This document shows, piece by piece, positions 1,875 to 21,880 of a stretch of 23,299 bases of DNA. The stretch comes from a candidate division KSB1 bacterium. Lineage in GTDB: Bacteria > Zhuqueibacterota > JdFR-76 > DREG01. Every line of letters begins with the position of its first letter. Positions within the stretch are counted from its first letter, which is position 1. The translations under genes were made by a program, and so were the position numbers. The notes under the pieces were generated by a model. The model searched no databases. It had not been told where the DNA came from and saw nothing but the letters and a program-made list of their open reading frames with translations. The DNA is taken from NCBI GenBank assembly GCA_022566355.1, contig JADFJB010000074.1, forward strand, positions 1-23,299. Reading direction: 5' to 3'.

Positions 1875-2445
1875 TCATAATTCCACAATCCACTTTGGAA
1901 TAAAGGGCTGATTAGATACAGACGCTGAAGTTATTTCATTTATTCTAAAACTTTTATGTGAATCAGATACCATTCCATTCTTTTCGACTTCCCAAACATG
2001 CAATATTTTGTTACCAGTTGACGGGTAACGTAGTGAATATGGTTCCACTAAGCGATTTGACCCATGATACAAAACTACCGCACAAAGCCTATTTCTTGCA
2101 GCATACCTTATTTTGTCCAGTTCAGACCGTCCATATTGTAGATCTAACCTCTGGAAAATAGGAACGTGGCACTAGCTCGCCTGTTGCTTGAGGCATTGAT
2201 TGGAGATTTGGTTTTGCCATAGCGGGTTCAAACCACCAAGCGATAGCGTCTTCTAAATCATCAATAAATGTGCTAACAGGTGGTAGTATGTTAATTTGGT
2301 GCGTTAATTGTTGTTGCCACGTCATCCTCAGTAAGTCTAAGTTTATTGAATCCATTATCTGTTTTACCGAGTGAGGTGAGAATCCCTTAAAGTTAAATTT
2401 TTTATCTACTATACTTTTTGCTTGTTGCGGATCTATTTCTTCTCT
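1875..2445 (-). pseudogene. C-terminal part of AbiEii-like gene, separated by two frameshifts
   Basis: After the AbiEii stop (2433-2435), homologous sequence continues in another frame: EEIDPQQAKSIV, FKGFSPHSVKQIMDSINL, ILPPVSTFIDDLEDAIAWWF, ATGELVPRSYF. This is the helical C-terminal region seen in longer AbiEii proteins. Near 2152-2158 the frame shifts back and the text resumes as QRLDLQYGRSELDKIRYAAR, then YHGSNRLVEPYSLRYPSTGN, ending PKWIVEL at 1875. That last part resembles the WYL-like domain fused to some AbiEii-like proteins. One lost base near 2436-2445 (gagAAGAAA from a probable gagAAAGAAA) and one extra base in a TTTTCC run would explain both shifts. They cancel, so the final segment is in the original frame. 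Confidence 0.7.
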
Positions 2446-3065
2446 AAATTACGACTTATATTTACAATGTCATAAACATCTCGAACTCGACCATTTCGTT
2501 CCACAAGCGCACGTGTTTTCTCGGCTAAAATTTCGTTGATTGTATAGCATAGAATTTGAGGAGAGGGACTAGTTGCATCTTCATAATCATGATAAAGATT
2601 ACGGAGTTGAGGAGTGTTCGAAATATACTCGTCTTGAGTAATATCTAATTTTACTCTCTGCAAGCTACTGTTTGGTAAACCTAGAGGGCCACTAAAAGGA
2701 ATTCTTACTTGGTATGATATTTTTTCACGGGGATTTTCATATTCTTCAATTTTCCAGGTTGATCGAGGAAAACTTAAACCCGTGTTTGATTCTATCCAAC
2801 TAGCTACCTCATCCAGATTGGTTGTTATAGAATCAACACTAATCGATATTTCGGGTGAAACTGTAAAATCGAGGTCTTCAGAAAATCTATAGGTTTCAAA
2901 ATAACACTTCTTCAGACAGGTTCCTCCCTTGAATATCCATTTTGAAATAATGGGATGTAATGAGATAGACCTAAGAAACCATCCTATAACATAATCCTTC
3001 TCAATTGTTGTTGGCAACAGATCATGATGCTTAGCTAATTCCAGGATTTGTGCTTTAGGAATCAT
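2433..3065 (-). CDS. AbiEii-like nucleotidyltransferase toxin, prematurely stopped
   Basis: A 210-residue N-terminal part of an AbiEii/AbiGii-family nucleotidyltransferase, the toxin of type IV toxin-antitoxin systems. EKDYV is at residues 22-26. The nucleotidyltransferase core FKGGTCLKKC...RFSEDLDFT spans 45-68, with GG and the DLD acidic pair for metal binding. The later motif AEKTRALVERNGRVRDVYD spans about 181-199. All core motifs are present, so the catalytic domain may still be made. The start at 3065 lies six bases after the AbiEi stop, in operon arrangement. Homologues usually continue after VNISRN; here the frame ends at NLEKK while the missing continuation is found in another frame downstream, so this is a frameshifted gene or an assembly indel. 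Confidence 0.85.
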   Translation of the reverse strand: MIPKAQILELAKHHDLLPTTIEKDYVIGWFLRSISLHPIISKWIFKGGTCLKKCYFETYRFSEDLDFTVSPEISISVDSITTNLDEVASWIESNTGLSFPRSTWKIEEYENPREKISYQVRIPFSGPLGLPNSSLQRVKLDITQDEYISNTPQLRNLYHDYEDATSPSPQILCYTINEILAEKTRALVERNGRVRDVYDIVNISRNLEKK

Positions 3066-3071
3066 TTATGG

Positions 3072-3875
3072 TTATATTCGTATATTAACTCGAAGATTCC
3101 ATTTACTGATTATTTTACCGGATGCTGGTCCGTCTGGATCTAGATTTGAAATTCCCGTAGAAATATTTCTTTGACATTCTTGAATCCAACCCTCAGGGAC
3201 AGGAGTACCGAACTTTTCTGTCAAGAAGCCCAGACGTTTAAATAGTGAACCACGTTGAAAACGTAAAGCATATTTCAATAATAAATCCGGATCGCAATTT
3301 TTGGAATGCCAAAAATTCCTCATGATATCCACTGTGTGTTGTGCGCCTCCTCCGAAGCGAGGAAGATCCAAAATGTCTATGACTAGCCTGTTTGGATCGG
3401 CAATTTCAACAACTTTACTCCCAAACCATTTTGTTATTGTTCCGAAAAACTTTTTTTTTATTATTACTCTCGTTCTAAATCGAATGCCACCAATTACCTG
3501 ATTCGTAACACGTTGAGGTGTCATTGTCACAACCGAGATTGTATTGAATATCTGTTCAGTTAAATCCCAGTATTCAGCTGCAGACCATCCAGAGATAAAT
3601 GCAGGACGAAAAAAATCCATAGCAAGTGGCCATGCATTCTCAATGACAGGCTTTGGTGTTGAAGAAGTAATTGGTACAATTGTATATACTCCACGTTTTA
3701 GACGCTGTAACCATCCTTTCCGTGTCAATCGGCTTAAAATTTGGTTTGCAGTCCCGCGAGGACATGGATGTAGAGAAAGTAAATCATCAATTCCTATTAT
3801 TTCTTTCTCATTTGCTGTGAAGTAGCTGATTATTTTTCGTTCTTGGGTGCTTAATCCTGCTAACTCTTTATTCAT
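3072..3875 (-). CDS. AbiEi-family antitoxin/transcriptional regulator
   Basis: A 267-residue protein of the AbiEi type. The N-terminus (about residues 8-70) is a winged-helix domain, LSTQERKIISYFTANEKEII through GWLQRLKRGVYTIVP, with the terminal wing RLKRGVYTIVP typical of this family. The C-terminal domain carries FISGWSAAEYWDLTEQIFNT, GGIRFRTRVI and DILDLPRFGG, the signature of AbiEi antitoxins. AbiEi binds inverted repeats in its own promoter and counteracts the downstream AbiEii toxin, without a stable protein complex in studied cases. It is the first gene of the pair. The start at 3875 has no strong Shine-Dalgarno. The protein appears intact although its toxin gene is broken. Confidence 0.85.
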   Translation of the reverse strand: MNKELAGLSTQERKIISYFTANEKEIIGIDDLLSLHPCPRGTANQILSRLTRKGWLQRLKRGVYTIVPITSSTPKPVIENAWPLAMDFFRPAFISGWSAAEYWDLTEQIFNTISVVTMTPQRVTNQVIGGIRFRTRVIIKKKFFGTITKWFGSKVVEIADPNRLVIDILDLPRFGGGAQHTVDIMRNFWHSKNCDPDLLLKYALRFQRGSLFKRLGFLTEKFGTPVPEGWIQECQRNISTGISNLDPDGPASGKIISKWNLRVNIRI

Positions 3876-5947: not shown

Positions 5948-6721
5948 TTATTTCGCGGAATCAACCTTCCCGTGCCCTTCATTCACGGTATTGTCGCTTC
6001 TTTTACCCGGGTACCTCCGTATTGGGGTTTTGTCTTTAAAATGGGTTACCCAAAAACAATAAGCATAAGGGTACATGGTTTGAACGACATGGAAAGGTTC
6101 ATACTCGAAAAGCCGGCGCATAGCCCAGGAAAAGCGATAGCGCGGATCTTCCGGAGTAATAATTTCGACAATACAATCTACCTGGAAACTGACAAAGATG
6201 GGTGCATTACCGGTCCAAAGCACCGAAGCCCTTGGATTGGCTGAAAGATTACGAAAAGTTGATCCCTCAAAAATTTCCAACAACCCTAGCCTGCGCCAAT
6301 CGATATGCTCCGGGTGAGCGTAGAACTCGCGAGCGGTTTTGATGCGAAGTTCCCGTGTATCATTAACGGCGTGCGGCGGTAAAGTTTGAATTTCTGCAAC
6401 TGCACTTTCCACAAGGTTTAAATAATGATCTATGTGCTCATCTTTAGGCGTAAAACCGACACCCTTATTGGCCAGGTTCGGAACTCCATCACCTTCTCCC
6501 CAGGTACCGACAACCGGGAGATGTCCGGCGTTAAATGCAACATATTCATCCTTTTCAATCGCATCATAAATACTGTGTTTATAATCAAGCTGCCAACGAA
6601 TAAATTTCTGCGGTAATTCTTTGATTTCGAATTCCTGAGTCTGACCGTTCTTATTTAGTTTAGCGATTTCGTTCTCCACTTGCACTTGCTGAGTTAGAAT
6701 AGCTGTATCAGTTGTTGTCAT
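5948..6721 (-). CDS. Unrecognised protein linked to the radical SAM/cytochrome cluster
   Basis: A 257-residue soluble protein with no signal peptide, which I cannot assign firmly. Its second half, LLEIFEGSTFRNLSANPRAS (148-167), then FVSFQVDCIVEIITPEDPRY (176-195) and YPYAYCFWVTHFKDKTP (217-233), has the strand pattern of FMN- or heme-binding split-barrel proteins of the pyridoxamine-phosphate-oxidase type. That resemblance is by eye only. The N-terminal half contains LPVVGTWGEGDGVPNLAN, followed by YAHPEHIDWRRLG. The ATG at 6721 has GAGGAG seven bases upstream and begins only 24 bp after the radical SAM stop, so the two are probably co-transcribed. By context it may assist tetrapyrrole handling or assembly of the bd-like complex. 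Confidence 0.8.
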   Translation of the reverse strand: MTTTDTAILTQQVQVENEIAKLNKNGQTQEFEIKELPQKFIRWQLDYKHSIYDAIEKDEYVAFNAGHLPVVGTWGEGDGVPNLANKGVGFTPKDEHIDHYLNLVESAVAEIQTLPPHAVNDTRELRIKTAREFYAHPEHIDWRRLGLLEIFEGSTFRNLSANPRASVLWTGNAPIFVSFQVDCIVEIITPEDPRYRFSWAMRRLFEYEPFHVVQTMYPYAYCFWVTHFKDKTPIRRYPGKRSDNTVNEGHGKVDSAK

Positions 6722-6745
6722 TTCTTCTCCTCATTTAAATCTTGG

Positions 6746-8008
6746 TTATACCAATTTCTCAGGGTTGGTTTCTTGATTTCCTTTAATAAAAGACGGCATT
6801 TTTGAGAATGAATCCTGCCGATCCATTCCGGCGATGGCTTCATTAAATACTGCTGTTGTAACGGAATGAATATGATTCCGTTGCGCAAATATTTCAAGGC
6901 CTTTTTTTACTTTTTTTCTGATAAAAGCAATAGGGATTCTTTGCAGTCGCTCCTGTGCCTCTGAAGTCCACTGAATTTCCGGCAATTCCAATTTTACGCC
7001 GGTAGGCTGATAGGTGCATGCGGGATCTTCCTGCATGGTATCGCCAAAAGTGGCATAAGCCCTGCAACGGCAGCCCCCACAAAGTTCATTGAATTCGCAC
7101 CGGCCACAGCGTCCCTTCAGTTGTTTTAAATCTCTAAGTTTGGAAAAAACAGGGGATGAATGCCAGGTTTCAGTAAAACTTTTTTCTCTGACATTTCCGG
7201 CTACCACATTCATGTAAGGACAGGGGGTCACTTCTCCCTCGGGGGTTATCCTGCAATATTCTGTTCCCGCCATACAGCCACCGCTCTCCAATCCACCTTT
7301 GCCTCTCTCATAGGCTATTTGCTTAAATTGCGGTGCACATTTGGAACGAACCAGCATGGGTTTAAAATTGTCCTGCAGCTCCACTAGATTTGCCAGCATG
7401 TTTTCAGTTCTTTCAGGAGATAAGTCATTCATTTTTTGACCGCGTCCCGTTTGAACCAGGAAATATAAATTGCTGGACCAGGCGCCCTTTTCCCGGGCAA
7501 ATTCTATGATCCTGGGAATTTCATCATAGTTCATTTCCATAACGGTGGTCTGAACCAGAACTTGCAAGCCATTGTCCCGGCAAATATCCAAAGCGCGAAC
7601 AGAATACTCCCAGGATTTTGGTCCGCCGCGGAATGTGTTATGTTTTTCAGGATCGAGCGAATCGATGCTGATGCCGACTCCCTTTACACCGCATTCGATC
7701 ATTTTCCGGGCAACTTTATCTGTGAGCAAAACACCATTGGTGCCCATCACGACCCACATACCTTTTTCGGATGCCCGCAAAGCAATTTCGTAAATATCCC
7801 GGCGTAAAAGCGGCTCACCGCCGGTAAGGATCAGCATTTCAGTACCGAGAGATTTCATTTCATCAATCAAATCAAAACATTCCTCTGTAGTTAACTCCTC
7901 TGCTGCTTTTTTTCCGGCATCCATGTAACAGTGAGGGCACTTTAAATTGCACATCTTGGTGAGATTCCACGAGATGAGGGAAGGTGTAAAAATAGAGGTA
8001 TTATTCAT
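6746..8008 (-). CDS. AhbD/NirJ-like radical SAM/SPASM protein with C-terminal PCP-reductase-like domain
   Basis: A 420-residue radical SAM enzyme. The 4Fe-4S/SAM motif CNLKCPHC is at 20-27, GGEPLL at 63-68. A Cys-rich SPASM/twitch region has C224, C245, C252, C263, then CGRCEFNELCGGCRCRAYA (301-319) and DPAC (C331). This last pattern, CxxCEFxxxCGGCRxRA...GDxxxEDPxC, is characteristic of the AhbD and NirJ enzymes of heme and heme d1 biosynthesis. After it, WTSEAQERLQRIPIAFIRKK and following residues (347-396) match the small PCP_red domain also found at the C-terminus of the protochlorophyllide reductase subunit ChlB. The gene is 88 bp downstream of the cytochrome c genes. It probably modifies a porphyrin, but the product is unknown. 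The start at 8008 lacks a strong Shine-Dalgarno. Confidence 0.9.
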   Translation of the reverse strand: MNNTSIFTPSLISWNLTKMCNLKCPHCYMDAGKKAAEELTTEECFDLIDEMKSLGTEMLILTGGEPLLRRDIYEIALRASEKGMWVVMGTNGVLLTDKVARKMIECGVKGVGISIDSLDPEKHNTFRGGPKSWEYSVRALDICRDNGLQVLVQTTVMEMNYDEIPRIIEFAREKGAWSSNLYFLVQTGRGQKMNDLSPERTENMLANLVELQDNFKPMLVRSKCAPQFKQIAYERGKGGLESGGCMAGTEYCRITPEGEVTPCPYMNVVAGNVREKSFTETWHSSPVFSKLRDLKQLKGRCGRCEFNELCGGCRCRAYATFGDTMQEDPACTYQPTGVKLELPEIQWTSEAQERLQRIPIAFIRKKVKKGLEIFAQRNHIHSVTTAVFNEAIAGMDRQDSFSKMPSFIKGNQETNPEKLV

Positions 8009-8074
8009 AAGATTTTAGATTTCACCAGCGGATTCCAGATTCCGAAATCAGAAATCCGCAATGATTTAAATAAT

Positions 8075-8088
8075 GTTAACTAGTTAAC
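8075..8088. promoter_or_regulatory. Perfect 14-bp palindrome in the gap before the radical SAM gene
   Basis: GTTAACTAGTTAAC is a perfect palindrome in the 88-bp gap between the cytochrome c gene and the radical SAM gene, 67 bp upstream of the latter's start. It could be an operator for a separate promoter of the last two genes. It has no T-tract and is AT-rich, so it is not a convincing terminator. Confidence 0.3.
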
Positions 8089-8096
8089 TAAACCTT

Positions 8097-9614
8097 TTAA
8101 GATTTCCCTTTATATCTTACTCGGACAAAAAAGATCAGACCCAGCTCAGCCAATAGAGTGATCATTGCATATTTGGCCATGGGTCCCACAGCTGATTCGG
8201 TTTCCATGGGTTGTAAATATAAGTTATACCAGGAAGTGAGTCCGCGCTTGTTGCCACGCTCTTTATTAAATCCATCCCAAATAGAAAATGCGATGGGAAT
8301 AAAGGTGTTCTCTTCAAACGATAGTCCATCTTCTGAAATTCTCTTTCGTTTAAAGATGGCAGTCCACTCTCCCTCTTCAAAACTATGAGTGACTTCCAGA
8401 TTTGATTCACCAGGTTTGAGATTCTGACTGCCTTTACCAATATAAAAATCCGCAGAATCTTTAGCTAAGTCGAGGAACCAGAGGTCAACGGAATTTTTAC
8501 TATCACCAAACATAAAATAAGGCTTTTTTATACCCTGTGGCAGTTTTGACGGAAGCAGGATTGCGACAGCATCATTAAATTCATCCGTTTCAGGATCGGC
8601 ATTCGGATCAAAATTTGGCGCGACTAAAGTTGGGCTATTGCCGGCATTGGTTTCGGCGCTCATGTCATGCCAGGTAAGCATGATTGCGATGTCCTCCTGG
8701 TCATATACTGCTTTTACTTTAACCGCATTCACACCAGGATAAAATTGTCTACCCGGTTCAATGATCTGGCCAACGATTGGGAACAGGGTTTCATTGGCAT
8801 TTTGAAACAGGGCTTTACCCTGGCTTATGTCCATTTTACTTTCTAATCCTTCGGCGATTACCAAAGTGCCGTAATTGGCTTCGGACTCTCCCAGGGAATA
8901 CACATAATTCACCAAATGCCATTGATCTTCCGGAGGTTGGATGGAATAGGAAGGCATTGGAGACCCGTCCAATCCTGTTGTAAAAGTTCGATAAATATCT
9001 TCCCGGGTGGGACCGCCTCTAAAAGTCCATTTTTTGCTTAAATCTGCCGCCCGAATGGGTTGATCCCACTGGTCTATCAAAGTTGGGGCAGATGGACCAT
9101 CCCCGAGCCCAAGATTCCCATGGCAATCAACACACTGGTTTTCTACGAAAACTTGCCTGCCTCTTCGGATTGATTCTTCGGTTAGTGATGGCGGATTGGG
9201 AATTGTTATTGGAGTCACATCACCGAAATCAACAAAATCTTTTGAAAAGGATTTGAGATAATACGCCAGGTTGTCCAATTCGTTATTGGAAAAATTTGTC
9301 CATGCCGGCATACCTGTGGATGGCATCCCGTTTTTTATGCTTCTGGTAATGTCATTATGTGTCGGTAATTCACCGCTTTCCGTTGTTCTGAATTTAAACG
9401 TTCCGGAGGTAAAATCGCGTGGCTCGGGTCTGAAATATTTTTTCCCAACGCTGTTGGCATCGCCATTAATTCCATGACATTGGGCACAATATTTATCATA
9501 TAGCTGTTTTCCAGCTGCCCGCTGCTCTTCGGTACCAAGAATGTTATCCTGGGCAGAACCAAAATTGACCAATATAAATAAAAACCAAATATTCGAGTAA
9601 ATCAGTTTTCTCAA
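8097..9614 (-). CDS. Diheme cytochrome c fused to an ethylbenzene-dehydrogenase-type heme-binding domain
   Basis: A 505-residue exported protein. The signal peptide (about 1-21, ending GSAQ) is followed by a cytochrome c domain with CAQCH (43-47) and candidate ligand Met in GMPAW (102). A second one has CVDCH (161-165), with SPMPSY as candidate sixth ligand. Residues about 250-470 form an EB_dh-type domain: IAIMLTWHDMS, AVAILLPSKLPQ, PYFMFGDSKNSVDLWFLDL with M368 as a candidate heme b ligand, and FIPIAFSIWDG. A C-terminal transmembrane helix (about 478-497) anchors it on the periplasmic side. EB_dh domains form the heme b gamma subunit of type II DMSO-reductase-family enzymes, yet no molybdoenzyme is nearby. 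The start is a TTG at 9614 overlapping the previous stop, with AGGAGG just upstream. Confidence 0.9.
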   Translation of the reverse strand: MRKLIYSNIWFLFILVNFGSAQDNILGTEEQRAAGKQLYDKYCAQCHGINGDANSVGKKYFRPEPRDFTSGTFKFRTTESGELPTHNDITRSIKNGMPSTGMPAWTNFSNNELDNLAYYLKSFSKDFVDFGDVTPITIPNPPSLTEESIRRGRQVFVENQCVDCHGNLGLGDGPSAPTLIDQWDQPIRAADLSKKWTFRGGPTREDIYRTFTTGLDGSPMPSYSIQPPEDQWHLVNYVYSLGESEANYGTLVIAEGLESKMDISQGKALFQNANETLFPIVGQIIEPGRQFYPGVNAVKVKAVYDQEDIAIMLTWHDMSAETNAGNSPTLVAPNFDPNADPETDEFNDAVAILLPSKLPQGIKKPYFMFGDSKNSVDLWFLDLAKDSADFYIGKGSQNLKPGESNLEVTHSFEEGEWTAIFKRKRISEDGLSFEENTFIPIAFSIWDGFNKERGNKRGLTSWYNLYLQPMETESAVGPMAKYAMITLLAELGLIFFVRVRYKGKS

Positions 9615-10420
9615 TGTTCCTCCTGCGCTCGGGGACGTTGGTCCGTGTAATCATACAGAAAAAGAATTACATCCCAAATTTCTTCTTCCGACAAAAATTT
9701 TTCCCATGCCGGCATTGCAGAAGACCAGGGTGTTGCCTCTTCCGGCAACCCGGGAGCTCCCTTTGCAATCCTCCAAAACAGGTAAGATTCTTGAAGCATC
9801 GCGATAGTAGTCGGATCGGCGAAGTTTGCCGGGATGGGGTCTAACCCATGGACAAAAATACCATTGCCACGCATGTTGTCGCCATGACAAAACACGCAAT
9901 TTTGGTAATACACCCGCCGGCCATTTTCAACGTGCTTTAGAAAACTGTTCGGATCGGTTTCTTCCAATTCCCGGTAGGGATTCCCTGAAGTTACCAAATC
10001 AATTTTTGTGCCTTTAAAAGTGATTTCAGTTGGCGGCGGTGGATGGATGGTTCTTGCAATAACTGGTGGCTGCACCCGCTTTGCTGCATTTAAGTAAACC
10101 CGGGTAGCGACCAGGGTAGGTAATCCAATAGTCACGATAATTAGGGGAGTCATAAATTTTTTGTCGGTCAAAAACCGAATGATTGAAGATTTAGCAAACT
10201 CCAGATTCTCAGAATCTGCAGTCAAATAAGCCAACAAGGCAAGGGTAACGATTGCCATGAACATGCCAAAGATGGACGACGGCATGGGTGGATCGATGCC
10301 GTAAACCAGGACAAAATAGATCGCAAACCACCAGGCGGCCATCCAACCCAGGATATTGATCCTGGTAAATTTCAGCACAATCATTACTGCGACAACGGGA
10401 AGAACAACTAAGAAATTCAT
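9611..10420 (-). CDS. Membrane-anchored monoheme cytochrome c
   Basis: A 269-residue protein with an N-terminal membrane part and a C-terminal periplasmic cytochrome c domain. Hydrophobic helices lie at about 2-15, 24-40, 49-66 and 91-108. A proline-rich linker (IHPPPPTE, 126-132) leads to CVFCHG (175-180), with candidate sixth ligand Met in SSAMPAW near 233. The closing helix EEEIWDVILFLYDY is typical of class I cytochromes c. It overlaps the preceding diheme gene by four bases (ATGA) and shares its end with the TTG start of the next gene, so translation is coupled. By context it should relay electrons between a soluble donor and the bd-like oxidase. Confidence 0.9.
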   Translation of the reverse strand: MNFLVVLPVVAVMIVLKFTRINILGWMAAWWFAIYFVLVYGIDPPMPSSIFGMFMAIVTLALLAYLTADSENLEFAKSSIIRFLTDKKFMTPLIIVTIGLPTLVATRVYLNAAKRVQPPVIARTIHPPPPTEITFKGTKIDLVTSGNPYRELEETDPNSFLKHVENGRRVYYQNCVFCHGDNMRGNGIFVHGLDPIPANFADPTTIAMLQESYLFWRIAKGAPGLPEEATPWSSAMPAWEKFLSEEEIWDVILFLYDYTDQRPRAQEEH

Positions 10421-11229
10421 TGGCTTCCTTTCAATGATTCGAGATAATCAACCAAAACTTTTAATTGTTGAGTAGACACTCTATCATAAAAACTAATTCC
10501 ATCCAAGTATGTTTTCATAACGGTTGCTGGGAATCCCTCAGTTATGTTTAAATCCGGTTCAAGTACGGATTCATAAATTTGAGATTTTGCGAGTCGATTG
10601 CCAACATCAACCAGACTTGGTCCGATCAATGGAGTGGGTACATCCACTGAATGGCAGGTATTGCATCCGTATGTAACAAATATTCCAGGTCCGTCAAGAT
10701 TAGATATTAGTACCGCGGTTTGTGCCGCTGCACTTTCGGAAGCGCTGGCACCCTGCCCGGTAAAGCTGTGCGTGGTTTGCATGGTTACGGTAGGGGCAGC
10801 GCCAAGTGATTGTAAGTAGGCGATAATCGTTAGAATTTCTTCATCACTTAAACTTATTGGCGGCTTGTGGATCGCGGGCATACCGGGGAGGAATCCTTCA
10901 ACGACATAAATATTCGGATCGTAGATTGATTCGGCCAGGTACTCAATATCAGTCATTCCATCTTTTCTGGCGCTTGCGATAACGCCAATATTTCCTAAGT
11001 CTGGAAATCTGCCATCTGCTGTTGACCCGATAGTGTGACAAGTCATACAGGTTCCTTTACCGCTCATGATTTCTTCCCCAACAACAACCATCTCATCAGT
11101 GGTCATATCAGCGCTGAGTTCTGTGGATTCTGGTGGATAGGTTATCTTTTGCGGCACCTGCTGGCCAACATACCAATAGAATAATGTAACTGAAACCGTA
11201 AAAAGGAAAATAGATAAACCGTTTTTCAT
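10417..11229 (-). CDS. Diheme cytochrome c, N-terminally anchored
   Basis: A 270-residue protein with one N-terminal transmembrane helix (about 5-21) and two cytochrome c domains. CMTCH is at 61-65 with LPGMP (M117) as likely Met ligand. CNTCH is at 189-193 with a late FPATVMKTY that supplies another Met. The second domain resembles the cytochrome-c-type subunits of NO reductases and terminal oxidases in layout. The start at 11229 is chosen because its ATG overlaps the oxidase stop (ATGA) and GGAGG lies eight bases upstream; a longer frame to 11259 lies inside the oxidase gene. It is the second gene of the overlapping set and a plausible direct electron donor to the oxidase. Confidence 0.9.
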   Translation of the reverse strand: MKNGLSIFLFTVSVTLFYWYVGQQVPQKITYPPESTELSADMTTDEMVVVGEEIMSGKGTCMTCHTIGSTADGRFPDLGNIGVIASARKDGMTDIEYLAESIYDPNIYVVEGFLPGMPAIHKPPISLSDEEILTIIAYLQSLGAAPTVTMQTTHSFTGQGASASESAAAQTAVLISNLDGPGIFVTYGCNTCHSVDVPTPLIGPSLVDVGNRLAKSQIYESVLEPDLNITEGFPATVMKTYLDGISFYDRVSTQQLKVLVDYLESLKGSQ

Positions 11230-13037
11230 GACTGTGCCTCCAACGATTTCTCTTCCCAATCCTTTTTACCCGATAGGCTGGTGAGCCAAAATACGATTGC
11301 AATAAATGTAAAGAAAATGAGCACAGTAACTGAAACAACGCCGGAGGCGTAACCCAGTGTGGGTGTAAATGCGTCAGGAGAAGTATCTTTCATTACACCG
11401 TAGATATGCCAGTGCTGACGCAATCCGGAGCGGACATATCCCATCAACCCCATTAACCAGGTGAATGTAATTGCTAAAAAGAAAAGAGCATATTGCGACC
11501 TTGCAGGCATCTTGCCCCATTCAATCTTACCTTTCACTTCAGCATTCTTGTACATATAAACATCGATGATAGTTATGGAGAACATGGCAAATAAGACAGA
11601 TAAAACTTGAGGAACTGACAAACCGATCCGAATTTTCGCCTCGACAAAATATCCGTAGATGCCAAGAAATATCACAAAAATAGCCACTGCCGCAAATATG
11701 GAGAATTGCGCAGTATTGCCCTTTTTAGCCCAGGTGACTGTTGGCACCTTGTTACCGCGGCGGTACAATAGAAAACTCAGGTAAGTCGTTAAGATCAAAA
11801 TATTGACTGCCGTATTTTTCGCGGACATGACACCAAGGACCCCCAGCATTGGATGATGAGCTCCGCCCATTCTTCTGGCTTCTTCTATAGAGGCAACCAG
11901 CGAGTGCGGGGTAGCCCAAACGATGAAGCAGAGAGTAATGGATGCCAAAAGATATTTTATGAATTTTCTGAAGCGTTCGGCGCCTTGAATCCTTTCCATG
12001 CTGAGCCATAGGTAATAATTGGCGCCTAAGAATAGATTGCCGATGAGAACAGCTTGTATGATAAACAGCCAGGAGAATGTTCCTCCCATGAGAACGATTC
12101 CAAGACTTTGGGAATATGCATAAATCTCTTTGCCCAGCCAATAGCCGGCAAAAGGCAGCGGCAACAACGCACTGATTGCGATGAAATTGCCTACATAGCC
12201 CATCCAATCGTAATGAGCCTTTTCTTCTTTAGTTTTAGAGCCTAAGAATTTATAAGCGCCGTAAGCTGCTGCAATGGAGCCGCCAAAGGCAACATTTGCT
12301 ATAATCCTGTGGATGTTGATAGGCATCCAGATAAAATTGTTAATGGCATCCCAGGTACTGATTAACGCGCCGGTTTCTGTTATTCCGTTAGGTGTATTCA
12401 TAAATGTTAACCAAGCATTGGCTATAAACATGATGGCTGTACCAACAATATTTAAGCAGACCCCCAAAGCCAGGTGAACTTTCGGTGAAAATTTTCCCCA
12501 GCCGTAATAATAACTGTATAAGAAAATTGCTTCTGCAAAGAAGAGCATTGTATAGGGTAAAAACGTCGGGGTAAAAATTGCCATCATGTAATTCATTAAT
12601 TTCGGATATAGAACCATAAGCATGAAGGTAAGCATGGCTCCCAGGGCGGCAGTAAAAGAGAAGGATACAGAGAGTAACTTTGTAAATTCATAGGCCAGTT
12701 TATCATATTTTTTTTCTTTGGTTTTGTAACCGATAAATTCGATGATCAGTGCAAACATCGGTACGGCCAGTACAAAAGCGCCAAACATAAGATGTAATTG
12801 CGCTATCACCCACAGTGCCGTCCTGCTACCGACTAATGGGAATTTTCGATATTCAACATTGCCAATCGTTGCTGGAGTAATGGCTTGCTCGATTTGAGCC
12901 GTTTCATCAATGCCTTCTTCTAATTGTTGGGCCTGCCTCTTTAAGCTTAAATCTTGACGCAGTGTATTAAGAGAGACGAACAAACCCATAACAACCATTG
13001 CAGATATAAAAATATACATGTAATTTCTTTTTGTCAT
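11226..13037 (-). CDS. Cytochrome bd-like oxidase catalytic subunit (CydA-like, no Q-loop)
   Basis: A 603-residue integral membrane protein with about 14 predicted helices and distant but clear CydA homology. QLHLMFGAFVLAVP places H82 at the E. coli H19 position. LFFAEAIFLYSYYYGWGKFS matches AFFLESxFxGLFFFGW, with E169 at E107, while the E99 position seems to be Pro161. KVHLALG gives H188, FIANAWLTFMNTPNG matches the ILVANGW..NPVG stretch, and NIHRIIANVAFGG gives H243 at H186. GLRQHWHIYGV (538-548) stands for GRQPW. There is no quinol-binding Q-loop and no CydB or CydX nearby. Instead three cytochrome c genes follow with overlaps. This fits the cytochrome c-associated bd-like group reported in Nitrospira and other phyla. 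Whether it reduces O2, NO or something else is not known from sequence. Confidence 0.88.
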   Translation of the reverse strand: MTKRNYMYIFISAMVVMGLFVSLNTLRQDLSLKRQAQQLEEGIDETAQIEQAITPATIGNVEYRKFPLVGSRTALWVIAQLHLMFGAFVLAVPMFALIIEFIGYKTKEKKYDKLAYEFTKLLSVSFSFTAALGAMLTFMLMVLYPKLMNYMMAIFTPTFLPYTMLFFAEAIFLYSYYYGWGKFSPKVHLALGVCLNIVGTAIMFIANAWLTFMNTPNGITETGALISTWDAINNFIWMPINIHRIIANVAFGGSIAAAYGAYKFLGSKTKEEKAHYDWMGYVGNFIAISALLPLPFAGYWLGKEIYAYSQSLGIVLMGGTFSWLFIIQAVLIGNLFLGANYYLWLSMERIQGAERFRKFIKYLLASITLCFIVWATPHSLVASIEEARRMGGAHHPMLGVLGVMSAKNTAVNILILTTYLSFLLYRRGNKVPTVTWAKKGNTAQFSIFAAVAIFVIFLGIYGYFVEAKIRIGLSVPQVLSVLFAMFSITIIDVYMYKNAEVKGKIEWGKMPARSQYALFFLAITFTWLMGLMGYVRSGLRQHWHIYGVMKDTSPDAFTPTLGYASGVVSVTVLIFFTFIAIVFWLTSLSGKKDWEEKSLEAQS

Positions 13038-15516: not shown

Positions 15517-18500
15517 TTATTTCAAGTACAACATTTTTCGTGTCTGTGAAAAGTTTTCTGCTGCTAATAGGTAAACATAGATTCCTGCCGCGACAAATTG
15601 GCCGGAGGAGTTTGTACCATTCCAGGAAATTTGATATTTTCCGGATGGCTGCTCTCCCTGGTGTAACACTTTTATAACTTGACCGAGTGTGTTAAAAATT
15701 GTCAGGGTTACATGACTATCTTCAGGAAGATCGTATTCGATAATGGTATTGGGATTAAACGGATTCGGATAATTTTGTCGTAAGGCATATGCGGTTGGAA
15801 GAATATTCGATCCTTTGAATTCGCTATCATACCCTAATTTGAATGCACCAAGCTTATTTGTAAAAATCCTGATAGTATTTTTATCCGGATTTACAGAACC
15901 TGGTAATGGCAACCAATTTCCCCTTTGTTTTTGGAAAACAAATAACTTTTCAGAATCAGGATATTTTTTCGGATCAAAACCGAATTCCATTTCAAAAATA
16001 TTTTCGAATTCATTTGCAGGACTAAAATGATAGATTCTTTCCTCGTTTATATCCTCATAATCCGCAAGAAAATACGTTGATGATTTTAAATCGTCTTTTT
16101 GAATGTGGAGTTGAGCCTGTCCGTCAAGAGAGCTAACGATTTTGGCTTCGCCTGGCTTTGCCAGGGTCACTGCAAAAGACCTCACTTGAACAGAATCGAC
16201 TCCGGTGATTAATCCAGTCGCTTTGGTGCGAATTGAATAGGTTCCAGAAGTTGTGAACTCAAACGCTGCTGAATAAGCGCTTGTTGAATTTGGAATGAGC
16301 TGCATGTTCAGAGAAGTCGTATCACTCCCGACCCAGGCTTTTACTTCCGGTTCTTCACGAAGTGAGGCTTCCGAAATGACGATAATATCCGCATATTTTG
16401 AAGCTGCCGGGTTTTGCAGCACTGATGTTGAAATTGCCGGAGGAATAAGGGCGACGTCCGATCTCAAGCCATTATCCCATAAAAACTGTGCTGCTTCGGC
16501 GTTTGCAAACAATTCACTGGTACTGGCTGCACCAATAACCGCAAAACCGATTTCAACGATTTGATCCGGTTCTATCGTAAATGGTCCAGTTGATGTTAAT
16601 GTCGATACATCGGTCGTATCGATATTTTTCGTTTGAATACCGTTGTGTAAAAAATTCCATTTTTCAGAATTTGTAAATCCGTCACGACCGTCTCCACCAT
16701 AAACCTCATTCGAGTTATGTATGGAACGATAGGATAAGTCTCCAATTGTGGTTAATAATTTTGTCGCTGCGAGAAAAGTCGGATTATTGATTGCGTTTTG
16801 GACATAGCCAATTTTTCTTTGATCATCAAATCGGGCATTATCCATCCCTCCATTCGTAGTTATATCCCAATCGAAAAACAATCCCGCATAAACATTAGTT
16901 AGCGTATTTGTACCCACATTTTTAATATTATATCGATAAATGATGAAATCGTTAAACGGCTCTTTGTTATATGTAAAGGTCGTTTGGCTTATATTCACTT
17001 GCAAAGGTGAGGAGGCAAAAGAATCATCCAATAAAACCGAGCCTTCTTGATCAGAGAATTCTCCTGGTGAAACGATGCTCAAAGCAGTTAATGATTTAAA
17101 GTCATCATCCTGTTCTGAATCTGTACCACCGCGAATGCAATCGGAAAGTGTATTCACACCGGTGCCAATCATTAATCCGCCTTCGAAGAGCATATTCGTG
17201 CCATTGAAAACAAATCCATCGCCTGGAGTATCATCCGCAAATCCGGCAAACCCGATGTTCCCCTGAGCCGTAATCGAGGTTAATAATGTACCGGTATCGT
17301 GAGATAAAATCTGGGGTGGATTGGTGGCAATTTGTACTAAATCGCGATCAGAGTAATTATCCGCCGATATATTCATTATGAATTTTAAAATTGTACCCTC
17401 ACTTATTTCCTTTTCAATTGCAAATTGAAAGGATGCTTCCACAGTGTCATTTGTTTTGAGTACAGCTATATTCGATGAGCCATTAACGATGGAAACATTG
17501 GCATCAATTGCGTTTATCGAAATAGCAATGTTGGATGCATCTTTGAGGTAATTGGTAAACCTGACAACCAGGTTGACGACCTCTTCAACTTCAATATTGC
17601 CCTCACCGCTGGGTTCGGAATACGACGCATCAACAACACGGATGGCCGGAGACTCAGTCTCTTGAACCGCTTGCAATGCATCAACACTTCCTTTACCCAG
17701 CAAACCGGCAAAGCTGGGATTCAGTCCATCAATGTTGTTGGCCGTTACCCTGATTGTCTCTCTTAATTGGTCCACTGTATATTCCGGATGGAGTGTCTTT
17801 ACCAAACCAGCTATTCCAGCGGTAAGCGGCGATGACATGGAGGTGCCAGAGATTCGGATATATTGGTCTTGAGGGGAAGTACTTAAAACAGATGTGCCTG
17901 GTGCAAAAACATCTACTGAAATGCCATAACTAGATGAACCCGCTTTTCTTCCGGTATTGTCAATGCTCCCAACAGCGAGGACATGGTTATAGCTGGAAGG
18001 AAAATGAGGTTCGGAATCGGCATTTTTACGTTCGTTTCCAGCAGCACAAACCAAAAGAGAACCATTTGCATATGCAAAATCGACAATTTCTTGAGCAAGA
18101 TTTGAGTGACGACTATTACCCCAACTACAATTTATAATGTCTGCCCCATTGTCTGCTGCATATGCAACGCCATCGTAAGTAGATTGCAATACACTATCGT
18201 TTTCCGCATTTCTTGGCGCTACATTAACAGGCATAATCGTGCAATTCCAACTAACCCCGGAAACGCCAATATTGTTGTTGGTTACTGCTGCTGCAATCCC
18301 AGCGACATGGGTACCGTGTTGTTCAAGGGAGCGTTGAGATTCACGACCACTCGGGTCGTTTGAGTTGGTTGCAAAACTCCACCCGCGAACATCATCTATA
18401 AATCCATTGTCATCGTCATCGATGCCATTGCCCGGGATTTCGTCTTCATTGTTCCAAATATTGGCCTTCAAATCCTCGTGCTGCCAATCGACACCGCCAT

Positions 18501-19035
18501 CCACAATTGCGATTATGACGTTGCCGGATTCGCCTTTTACAATATCCCAGGCCAAAGCTGCATTAATAAAATTTAGATGGGCTTGCTGCTCCACTTGGGG
18601 GTCATTGGGTGTATCCTGAATTCTATCGATAAACAGAGGTTCTGCATATTCAACAAATGGATCCCTGGCAAATTCTTTCGCAACATCAAAAGGATTTTGG
18701 CCACTATCAAATTTAAAATAATAAACTTTCTTCAGAGGACCAGCCTTCTTTTTGGTAGAGAATTCCAGAAATGGCAAGGCTTTGTCTATGGCATAAACCT
18801 GGTATTTACTATTTAGTTGATCCAATGACTGAATGCCGGTTAATGAGCTCCCTTTTGCCAGCGCGATTTGATCTCTAAATTTCACTACAATCACACCTGG
18901 CTGAACATCCTGCAAAGAGCTTTTCTGAAGAGCAGCCCGGTCAGATTTTAATTTGTCTGAAAATGGATTTGCCTGGATAGAAACAGGCATAAGGATAAAA
19001 AACAATACCCAGAGTTTATTGGTAATCTTAGCCAT
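15517..19035 (-). CDS. Secreted subtilisin-like (S8) protease with T9SS sorting domain
   Basis: A 1172-residue secreted protease. A signal peptide (about 1-22, ending IQANP) is followed by a propeptide-like N-terminus to about residue 150. The S8 catalytic domain has Asp179 (IVDGGVD), His240 (EQHGTHVAGIAA), oxyanion Asn334 (CAAGNE) and Ser399 (SGTSMSSPLTAG), so the triad is complete. Several hundred residues of beta-rich repeats and adhesion-like modules follow. The last ~95 residues hold the FlgD-like sorting domain, LRQNYPNPFNPNTIIEYDLP through GIYVYLLAAE, ending KMLYLK. Such domains direct export through the type IX system and are cleaved or anchored at the surface. The start at 19035 follows AGGTAGGA. 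The TPR lipoprotein lies directly downstream. Confidence 0.93.
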   Translation of the reverse strand: MAKITNKLWVLFFILMPVSIQANPFSDKLKSDRAALQKSSLQDVQPGVIVVKFRDQIALAKGSSLTGIQSLDQLNSKYQVYAIDKALPFLEFSTKKKAGPLKKVYYFKFDSGQNPFDVAKEFARDPFVEYAEPLFIDRIQDTPNDPQVEQQAHLNFINAALAWDIVKGESGNVIIAIVDGGVDWQHEDLKANIWNNEDEIPGNGIDDDDNGFIDDVRGWSFATNSNDPSGRESQRSLEQHGTHVAGIAAAVTNNNIGVSGVSWNCTIMPVNVAPRNAENDSVLQSTYDGVAYAADNGADIINCSWGNSRHSNLAQEIVDFAYANGSLLVCAAGNERKNADSEPHFPSSYNHVLAVGSIDNTGRKAGSSSYGISVDVFAPGTSVLSTSPQDQYIRISGTSMSSPLTAGIAGLVKTLHPEYTVDQLRETIRVTANNIDGLNPSFAGLLGKGSVDALQAVQETESPAIRVVDASYSEPSGEGNIEVEEVVNLVVRFTNYLKDASNIAISINAIDANVSIVNGSSNIAVLKTNDTVEASFQFAIEKEISEGTILKFIMNISADNYSDRDLVQIATNPPQILSHDTGTLLTSITAQGNIGFAGFADDTPGDGFVFNGTNMLFEGGLMIGTGVNTLSDCIRGGTDSEQDDDFKSLTALSIVSPGEFSDQEGSVLLDDSFASSPLQVNISQTTFTYNKEPFNDFIIYRYNIKNVGTNTLTNVYAGLFFDWDITTNGGMDNARFDDQRKIGYVQNAINNPTFLAATKLLTTIGDLSYRSIHNSNEVYGGDGRDGFTNSEKWNFLHNGIQTKNIDTTDVSTLTSTGPFTIEPDQIVEIGFAVIGAASTSELFANAEAAQFLWDNGLRSDVALIPPAISTSVLQNPAASKYADIIVISEASLREEPEVKAWVGSDTTSLNMQLIPNSTSAYSAAFEFTTSGTYSIRTKATGLITGVDSVQVRSFAVTLAKPGEAKIVSSLDGQAQLHIQKDDLKSSTYFLADYEDINEERIYHFSPANEFENIFEMEFGFDPKKYPDSEKLFVFQKQRGNWLPLPGSVNPDKNTIRIFTNKLGAFKLGYDSEFKGSNILPTAYALRQNYPNPFNPNTIIEYDLPEDSHVTLTIFNTLGQVIKVLHQGEQPSGKYQISWNGTNSSGQFVAAGIYVYLLAAENFSQTRKMLYLK

Positions 19036-20020: not shown

Positions 20021-21880
20021 ATGTTAAAACTTAAAAATACACCAATCGTGCTCATCCTTTTTTTGAGTTTTTGTTGCACTGGCTTTTTTGAAATTACTTA
20101 TGGACAAGAGACACAAACTGATTACTATATGGTTGATGGCCAAAAAATTGATCTGCAAATTTCCTCAAAATATAGTGCAATAAAATTGAAAGAGGGAATG
20201 AGTGCCACTGAGATAAGATCTTTTAGCGCCAGTATCGATACAACGGAGTTTGGGAAAATTGAAACTTCACCAATACTTGAAAATCTTGGCATTTTGCTTG
20301 TCCGGATAAAAGAAGGTGCAGTACCAAGTACGTTTCGGACAGCTGTTGAAAACCTAAGAGGGAGCTCTGAAGTGGAACCTGGGGATCCAGTCCCAGTCTA
20401 TGAGGTCGGAGGTATTGACCAGGTTCTTGTAAATGAATTTATCGTTCAATTCAAATCAGATGTTTCCGAGGCAAACATCCAACAGTTCATTCAAAACACA
20501 AATGCTGAGGTGGTCCAGAAAAATGAAAAAATAAATAACCGCTATACTATAAAATTCACTGGTAAATCCCCGAGAGAAGCACTTACAATTTGCAACGAGA
20601 ATTACCAAAACCCTCTGATTGATTTTTTAGAACCAAATTTTATTCGAATTTATCCTCAACGCCCGAGAATAGAAGGAGATGGAATGGGTGCTAGGGGTGC
20701 TTCTGCGCCTTCTCCCTCAGCAACTCCAAATGATCCTTTGTATCCAAACCAATGGGGATTAAACAATACTGGCGCAACGGGTGTTTCTGATGCGGATATA
20801 GATGCGCCGGAAGCATGGGATATTACTAAAGGATCTAATACAATAATTATCGCAATCATTGATGAAGGTGTTGACACAGACCATCCCGATCTTTCAAGTA
20901 AAATAGTTACTCCCTACGATGCTATAGATGGCGATAATAATCAAGAGCCTAATTCATGGGACGGCCATGGGACGGCTTGTGCTGGAATCGCAGCAGCTCT
21001 CACGCATAACTCGGAGGGAGTTTCCGGTGTCGGGTGGGAAGTAAAGATTATGCCTATTAGAATTGCCCATAGCAATAGTCCAGATGGTGATTGGATTACT
21101 TCCAATTTGATTATTGAAGATGGCATTCGCACAGCTGTTGATCGAGGCGCTAAAATACTTAGCAACAGTTGGGGAGGCGGTTCACCATCCTCTGCTATCA
21201 ACTCCGCAATCGATTATGCGATCACAAATGATTGCGTTGTGGTTTTTGCGGCGGGTAATTGTCGTGTCAGTGGGTCAAACGCATGTCCTCAACCTGTAAT
21301 TTATCCAGCAAATTTATCATTAAGCAAAGTAATCATTGCTGTTAGCGCCACAAACGAATGGGACCAGTTCAAGACTCCTACCAGCTCAGATGGTGAAAAC
21401 TGGTGGGGTAGTCATAATGGCCCGGAAGTCACCCTTTCGGCCCCTGGTGTTCATGTCTACACAACAGATATATCCGGATCGGGTGGATATTCTAGCAATA
21501 ATTATGTGTCTAATTTTAATGGGACCTCAAGCGCAACACCATTTGTTGCAGGTGCAGCTGCACTCGTATTATCCCAAAATAATACTTGGAGTCCAAATCA
21601 AGTACGTACCCAACTTCAGAATACAGCGGATGATTTGGGACCGCCAGGATTCGATAATAAATTCGGATATGGCAGATTGAATGTTTGTGTTGCTCTTGGT
21701 GGTTCGTGTGTATACGGCGTCGCTCCTCCTGCTTCTTGTGCAACGATCGGATTCCCCATTAAATTGTTTGACACTAATTTTACACAAACCCTGGTTAATA
21801 CGGTTTTATTGTTTTCAACAGTTCTAGTATTTTTGCTAATACTGATTTTGCAGACAATGAAGCGAATAATAAAAGTTTGA
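20021..21880 (+). CDS. Subtilisin-like (S8) protease with C-terminal transmembrane tail
   Basis: A 619-residue exported protease. The signal peptide is about 1-28 (ending TYGQ), followed by a ~200-residue propeptide-like region ending in EPNFIRIYPQRP, with FIVQFKSDVSEANIQQFIQN as an inhibitor-I9-like strand-helix. The S8 domain has Asp281 (IIDEGVD), His316 (DGHGTACAGIAA), oxyanion Asn413 (AAGNC) and Ser503 (NGTSSATPFVAG). After the domain, a Cys-containing linker APPASCATIGFP (568-579) leads to a single hydrophobic helix (about 587-610) and a basic end, KRIIKV. It therefore ends in a motif-helix-basic tail rather than a T9SS domain. The start follows AAGGAGG. An Lgt-like gene lies 140 bp downstream on the same strand. 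Confidence 0.92.
   Translation: MLKLKNTPIVLILFLSFCCTGFFEITYGQETQTDYYMVDGQKIDLQISSKYSAIKLKEGMSATEIRSFSASIDTTEFGKIETSPILENLGILLVRIKEGAVPSTFRTAVENLRGSSEVEPGDPVPVYEVGGIDQVLVNEFIVQFKSDVSEANIQQFIQNTNAEVVQKNEKINNRYTIKFTGKSPREALTICNENYQNPLIDFLEPNFIRIYPQRPRIEGDGMGARGASAPSPSATPNDPLYPNQWGLNNTGATGVSDADIDAPEAWDITKGSNTIIIAIIDEGVDTDHPDLSSKIVTPYDAIDGDNNQEPNSWDGHGTACAGIAAALTHNSEGVSGVGWEVKIMPIRIAHSNSPDGDWITSNLIIEDGIRTAVDRGAKILSNSWGGGSPSSAINSAIDYAITNDCVVVFAAGNCRVSGSNACPQPVIYPANLSLSKVIIAVSATNEWDQFKTPTSSDGENWWGSHNGPEVTLSAPGVHVYTTDISGSGGYSSNNYVSNFNGTSSATPFVAGAAALVLSQNNTWSPNQVRTQLQNTADDLGPPGFDNKFGYGRLNVCVALGGSCVYGVAPPASCATIGFPIKLFDTNFTQTLVNTVLLFSTVLVFLLILILQTMKRIIKV

Follow-up and report, generated by a model that had tools for sequence, protein, structure and literature searches.

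Why is a cytochrome bd-type oxidase encoded together with a radical SAM enzyme resembling those that act in heme d1 synthesis and in the alternative heme pathway? This question is raised by six minus-strand genes at positions 5948-13037 of a 23,299-nucleotide stretch of DNA (hereafter, the window) from a candidate division KSB1 bacterium (assembly GCA_022566355.1, contig JADFJB010000074.1). In the order of reading, these genes encode a CydA-superfamily protein (A), three cytochrome c proteins (B, C and D), the radical SAM enzyme (E) and a split-barrel protein (F). A first-pass annotation made from the sequence alone had delimited the same cluster, and its coordinates and reading frames agree with ours. 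Our best reading is a dedicated tetrapyrrole-modifying or heme-loading pathway. Specifically, with a probability of roughly 55%, A to D form a cytochrome-fed reductase of the OR-N type, most likely reducing O2, and E, F and a group of proteins bearing the PCP_red domain form a dedicated set for tetrapyrrole maturation. The oxidase itself is of a known, uncharacterised kind. The accessory PCP_red set is the new part; searches of open-access text turned up no description of it.

Protein A lacks the quinol site

The CydA family model (PF01654) matches only the N-terminal half of A (91 bits, model positions 2-240 of 418), and the similarity stops ahead of the Q-loop. The Q-loop residues Lys252 and Glu257 are not conserved, and extra helices occupy the former Q-loop site. 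A contains no heme c motif (CXXCH). Neither CydB nor a second PF01654 protein was found in this genome, which is 98.5% complete, so A is not part of a CydAA' pair. The first-pass annotation had described a CydA-like protein devoid of both the Q-loop and CydB, as the family match, the alignments and the genome search all bear out.

The AlphaFold2 model of A, built from 47 homologues, has a predicted local distance difference test score (pLDDT) of 85 and a predicted template-modelling score (pTM) of 0.83. Structural comparison matches the model to CydA structures (Z 31-34 over about 350 residues), and canonical CydA proteins are the only matches of A in a phmmer search of the PDB. The same structural comparison gave membrane subunits of Alternative Complex III (ACIII) at Z 19-23, a likeness that may reflect shared architecture only.

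In the structure of E. coli cytochrome bd-II, His19 binds heme d, His186 and Met393 bind heme b558, and Glu445 binds heme b595 (PMC8585947). In profile alignment with canonical CydA, which covers the first half of the protein, H82 of A corresponds to His19 and is invariant in 47/47 homologues, E169 corresponds to Glu107 and H243 to His186. The position of Glu99 is occupied by Y162, an invariant Tyr among the homologues. M404 is a candidate for Met393, as read by eye at a site that mafft left unaligned. For the C-terminal ligands, a cut profile alignment places R540-W543 on Arg448-Trp451, so that Glu445 falls on S537; 46 of the 47 homologues have S, A or N in this column, and only a distant paralogue (L029) has E. 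The mafft alignment puts Glu445 one residue later, at G538. This shift changes nothing because no Glu occurs anywhere at 533-540, and on these alignments the Glu ligand of heme b595 is lost in A.

Overall, A shares with canonical cytochrome bd (CydAB, the qOR type) the four-helix core, the fold and the equivalents of His19, His186, Glu107 and Glu37, but it lacks Lys252, Glu257, Glu445, Glu99 and CydB, and has added helices and cytochrome c partners. A canonical quinol bd oxidase is ruled out by the missing Q-loop residues, CydB and Glu445.

A probable cytochrome c-fed member of the OR-N type

Genes A to D are tightly packed: A/B and B/C share ATGA, C/D share ATTGA, and D starts with TTG. Gaps of 88 and 24 nt separate D from E and E from F, respectively. 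B, C and D contain two, one and two CXXCH motifs, five in total. The N-terminal part of C contains several predicted membrane helices, as judged by eye. D matches the heme-binding family EB_dh (PF09459) with 51 bits against a cut-off of 33.3, and also matches the DMSO_red_II_gam model, below the cut-off of that model. The overlaps, the motif count and the EB_dh-type domain had all been noticed at first pass and are confirmed.

To survey the neighbourhood of A, one genome per species was scanned, giving 505 relatives; 80 loci were read, of which 48, the window included, were well flanked (3.5 kb or more upstream and 8 kb or more downstream). The search profiles were built from these same loci, many of which are close kin, so that the counts below describe the cluster and are no independent test of it. 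B, C and D lie beside A in 48/48 well-flanked loci. The order A-B-C-D recurs in relatives of many phyla, far beyond chance. ActB of ACIII is encoded directly upstream in 21 loci, mostly in records of the Acidobacteriota type, suggesting electron flow from quinol through ACIII and the cytochromes to A. In genome G030, A is closely preceded by a gene for a cupredoxin-like protein (L120:16317-17165), and in a dozen loci such a protein is encoded close to A or to oxidase genes; it is a possible alternative electron carrier.

Murali, Gennis and Hemp reportedly divided the bd superfamily into qOR, OR-C and OR-N types in 2021. In our tree of the four-helix core, three groups are resolved: the canonical proteins, the CXXCH-bearing proteins and the group of A (0.986). 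A is 55-57% identical to homologues from Nitrospinota records, a phylum whose CydA proteins are almost all OR-N1 or OR-N2 (PMC10839748). The clade holding A thus fits the published OR-N type, a putative cytochrome c:O2 reductase, an assignment made from sequence features and Nitrospinota identity, with a tree of our own that does not contain the 2021 reference sequences.

Like A, the CydAA' proteins of Nitrospinota and Nitrospirales have no quinol site and no heme c in CydA, and are linked to cytochromes c, but they occur as a pair of CydA proteins, in contrast to the single homologue here (PMC10839748, PMC12342949). The bd-like oxidase of Nitrospina and Nitrospira has about 14 helices, extra helices replacing the Q-loop and conserved N-terminal heme ligands, as does A (PMC3578206), and the TO_1 complex of Manganitrophus includes a periplasmic cytochrome b, as does D (PMC9040806). 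Those two systems belong to gene sets for nitrite or manganese oxidation, whereas the present locus is from another phylum and carries its heme c subunits B, C and D in one overlapping operon. The proposal made at first pass of a cytochrome c-fed bd-like reductase is therefore well supported by the missing Q-loop and CydB, the constant adjacency of cytochromes c and the OR-N-like clade.

The identity of the electron acceptor is a separate matter. The complex might reduce nitric oxide (NO), or might run in reverse as a quinone-reducing device like ACIII, instead of reducing O2. Such a role has been suggested for the bd-like protein of Nitrospina (PMC3578206), and it would accommodate both the active-site ligands unlike those of canonical bd (Glu445 and Glu99 are missing) and the presence of a heme-copper oxidase in this genome. 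Yet the His19 equivalent is invariant, and genes for ACIII and CoxI are frequent neighbours of A. Moreover, OR-N is the only oxidase type in three cultured aerobic Nitrospirales, which are nitrite oxidisers or comammox bacteria (PMC12342949), a finding that favours O2 over NO. A function other than O2 reduction is quite unlikely on this evidence.

A radical SAM enzyme with a PCP_red domain

Besides its Radical_SAM and SPASM domains, E carries a PCP_red domain at residues 347-391 (42.7 bits, gathering score 32.5). This domain, which was missed in the first-pass annotation, is the feature that matters most. Otherwise known in protochlorophyllide reductase (subunit B), it occurs here in genomes not known as phototrophic. 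With NirJ of heme d1 synthesis and AhbD of the alternative heme pathway, E shares the domain order, the radical SAM (RS) motif CX3CX2C (at residue 20) and the auxiliary-cluster motif CX2CX5CX20C (at residue 301); CX2CX5CX20-21C is of the NirJ type (PMC12505453). Among E homologues bearing PCP_red, 36/36 retain the RS motif and 35/36 the auxiliary motif, and all 36 form one clade (99/99) apart from the AhbC/AhbD-like tandems of related genomes. The best models for E are NirJ2 (TIGR04055; 357 bits, cut-off 500) and AhbD (TIGR04545; 310.5 bits, cut-off 500); NirJ (TIGR04051) gives 210 bits against a cut-off of 515. These results uphold an AhbD/NirJ-like radical SAM identity as originally proposed; E as AhbD or NirJ proper was rejected, because the cut-offs are unmet and its clade is separate.

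SPASM enzymes mostly act on peptides, and E scores about 147-159 bits with the PqqE and mycofactocin models. E might then modify a peptide or protein, such as a residue or a cross-link in A or a cytochrome, and PCP_red would be a protein-binding element. This seems rather improbable, as NirJ2 and AhbD are the best models by far, the auxiliary motif is that of NirJ, and the enzyme in which PCP_red is otherwise found acts on a tetrapyrrole. In addition, no obvious gene for a precursor peptide was seen in the cluster, where small open reading frames were not searched systematically.

If the substrate is a tetrapyrrole, E might simply be the heme b synthase of the organism (AhbD function), linked to the oxidase only through the need of the latter for heme. 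Consistent with such a function are the AhbD score, the failure to find HemQ in this genome, and relatives of the same order with pairs of proteins that we name AhbC/AhbD-like by inference. But genes for HemH (ferrochelatase) and HemY lie side by side in this genome and suffice for the final reactions of the protoporphyrin route, E has an extra domain and a clade apart from the AhbC/AhbD-like pairs, and no AhbC-like partner was found in this genome. Given HemH and HemY, E is probably not a housekeeping heme synthase, a candidate role that was rejected on these grounds; judging from the gene content, protoheme is probably made without E in this organism. A role as the general heme b synthase is thus very unlikely.

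The PCP_red set accompanies the oxidase

Conservation of the radical SAM gene with the oxidase had been proposed as a test of their link. E is present in 25/48 well-flanked loci, lying directly downstream in those of Calditrichota, Bacteroidota and Rhodothermota and upstream in those of Gemmatimonadota and in one NC10 locus; it is thus conserved with the oxidase across several phyla, as one clade. The link to the radical SAM enzyme stands, but was drawn too narrowly, as a whole set of PCP_red-domain proteins is linked. In 43/48 loci there is a gene for a universal stress protein (USP) joined to PCP_red domains and a rubredoxin-like motif; some PCP_red protein of any kind occurs in 45/48, and a Mrp-type Fe-S carrier in 28/48. 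PCP_red is found on the radical SAM enzyme, on the USP fusion and on a small Zn-ribbon-like protein. In the present genome, the remainder of this set lies at a second locus (Table 1), whose gene order is that found downstream of F in relatives.

Co-occurrence across genomes, an independent test, points in the same direction. Pfam's own model PF08369 matches in 5 of 99 relative genomes sampled, all five with a bd-like CydA (Fisher 8e-8, kinship not corrected), and five of the six genomes among these 99 with a CydA matching A at 1e-13 or better have PCP_red. In the phylum of genome G086, 70 genomes have both A and PCP_red, none has A alone, three have PCP_red with no A detected and four have neither (3e-5); the three with PCP_red only are incomplete (70-81%). 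In open-access text, subscription papers not being covered, nothing relevant was found on a link of PCP_red or radical SAM proteins with bd-like oxidases, and two papers on OR-N oxidases make no mention of such partners. G030 also encodes a separate triple-PCP_red protein (267 aa; L126, G030:C34:8001-20000), with genes for two diheme proteins and one cupredoxin-like protein close by.

These data also bear on the possibility that the oxidase contains ordinary hemes b and c, and that E, F and the PCP_red proteins form a trafficking, repair or stress system in which E modifies no active-site heme. In line with this, the commonest partner is the USP/PCP_red fusion, above E, and two genomes (G011 and G023) have F and the USP/PCP_red protein with OR-C-like CydA pairs and contain no E-type enzyme. 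Against it, E is of a catalytic radical SAM type, with motifs intact in 35-36 of 36 homologues, and forms one clade associated with these oxidases. We consider this reading as a whole unlikely.

Protein F

The AlphaFold2 model of F (pLDDT 80) is a split barrel. Its best Foldseek matches in the PDB, to 1vl7, Rv1155 and HutZ, include a putative heme oxygenase and an F420 protein; all are marginal (E 4e-4 to 8e-4). On the basis of the model, it is possible that F handles heme. Homologues of F adjoin A in L120 and OR-C-like CydA pairs in L118 and L119, which excludes F as a family-specific protein with no relatives. Beside the pairs of CXXCH-bearing CydA proteins in G011 and G023, the F homologue is accompanied by the USP/PCP_red protein, suggesting that the role of both extends beyond a single branch of the superfamily. 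In L118 and L119, the tandem CydA genes with CXXCH are followed by genes for a 169 aa protein with no family assigned, the F homologue and the USP/PCP_red protein. In a locus of Fibrobacterota (L044:19440-21608), a single reading frame encodes an F homologue joined with PCP_red and with two USP domains, a fusion that links F to the PCP_red carriers.

Proposed mechanism and its weighing

In the proposed mechanism, periplasmic electrons from the cytochrome c pool, which in relatives would be supplied by ACIII, enter through the hemes c and b of B, C and D, from which they would reach the hemes in A and, most likely, reduce O2 there. C, with its own membrane helices, probably stands in for CydB or a second CydA. 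E would apply radical SAM chemistry of the NirJ/AhbD kind to a tetrapyrrole, Mrp would serve Fe-S clusters, and the PCP_red proteins and F would hold or deliver the tetrapyrrole, which we infer goes to A.

Several points weigh against this scheme. E is near A in just 25 of the 48 loci, although it can sit elsewhere in the genome, as in G086, and it scores below every NCBIfam equivalog cut-off. Four genomes with a CXXCH-bearing CydA (G059, G064, G070 and G087) have no PCP_red. The modelled fold of F fits flavin or F420 as well. We know of no established role for PCP_red outside protochlorophyllide reductase. An archaeal member of the bd family is said by Murali and colleagues (2021) to work with b hemes only, so that in principle such an oxidase can do without a special heme. 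In the literature, no biochemistry on this subfamily was found.

Even so, the conserved gene set suggests that the oxidase depends on a heme that is made or handled in a special way. Further, A and its relatives might form a branch of the bd superfamily that is widespread, fed by cytochrome c and equipped with an undescribed active-site heme made by E and loaded by PCP_red proteins, the loss of the b595 Glu going with this change. This more specific idea is tentative and somewhat doubtful. The special heme is a sound hypothesis that lends itself to testing, and should not be read as a finding.

Features of the window and the second locus

Table 1. Genes of the oxidase cluster in the window, and the second locus of the same genome
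Feature	Position	Strand	Basis
A: CydA-superfamily protein, 603 aa	11226-13037	minus	PF01654, AlphaFold2 model, profile alignments, column counts
B: diheme cytochrome c, membrane-anchored, 270 aa from its ATG	10417-11229	minus	two CXXCH, PF00034/PF13442
C: hydrophobic N-terminal part and monoheme cytochrome c domain, 269 aa	9611-10420	minus	one CXXCH, PF13442
D: diheme cytochrome c with EB_dh-type heme b domain and C-terminal hydrophobic segment, 505 aa	8097-9614	minus	PF00034 x2, PF09459
E: radical SAM/SPASM enzyme of NirJ/AhbD type with C-terminal PCP_red domain, 420 aa	6746-8008	minus	PF04055, PF13186, PF08369
F: split-barrel (PNPOx/HutZ/HugZ/F420) fold protein, 257 aa	5948-6721	minus	weak PF01243, AlphaFold2 model
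Second locus (L117): conserved proteins of 199 aa and 122 aa, USP/3xPCP_red/rubredoxin-like protein, Mrp-type carrier, 170 aa PCP_red protein, CopD-like membrane protein	G000:C1:24001-42000

The window also encodes a type IV toxin-antitoxin pair of the AbiEii/AbiEi type (2433-3875) and two subtilases (15517-19035 and 20021-21880), the first of which carries a type IX secretion-type sorting domain at its C terminus. No RNA families were found in the window with Rfam.

Significance

OR-N oxidases are the predicted terminal oxidases of nitrite oxidisers, comammox bacteria and many uncultured phyla, and no cytochrome c-linked member seems to have been characterised yet. The conserved partner genes provide a concrete test of which heme these oxidases use and how it is made, and the partner set could be what has been lacking for their expression in a laboratory host. 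If the proposed pathway is true, PCP_red would gain a role outside chlorophyll synthesis, and an orphan clade of radical SAM enzymes would gain a substrate class.

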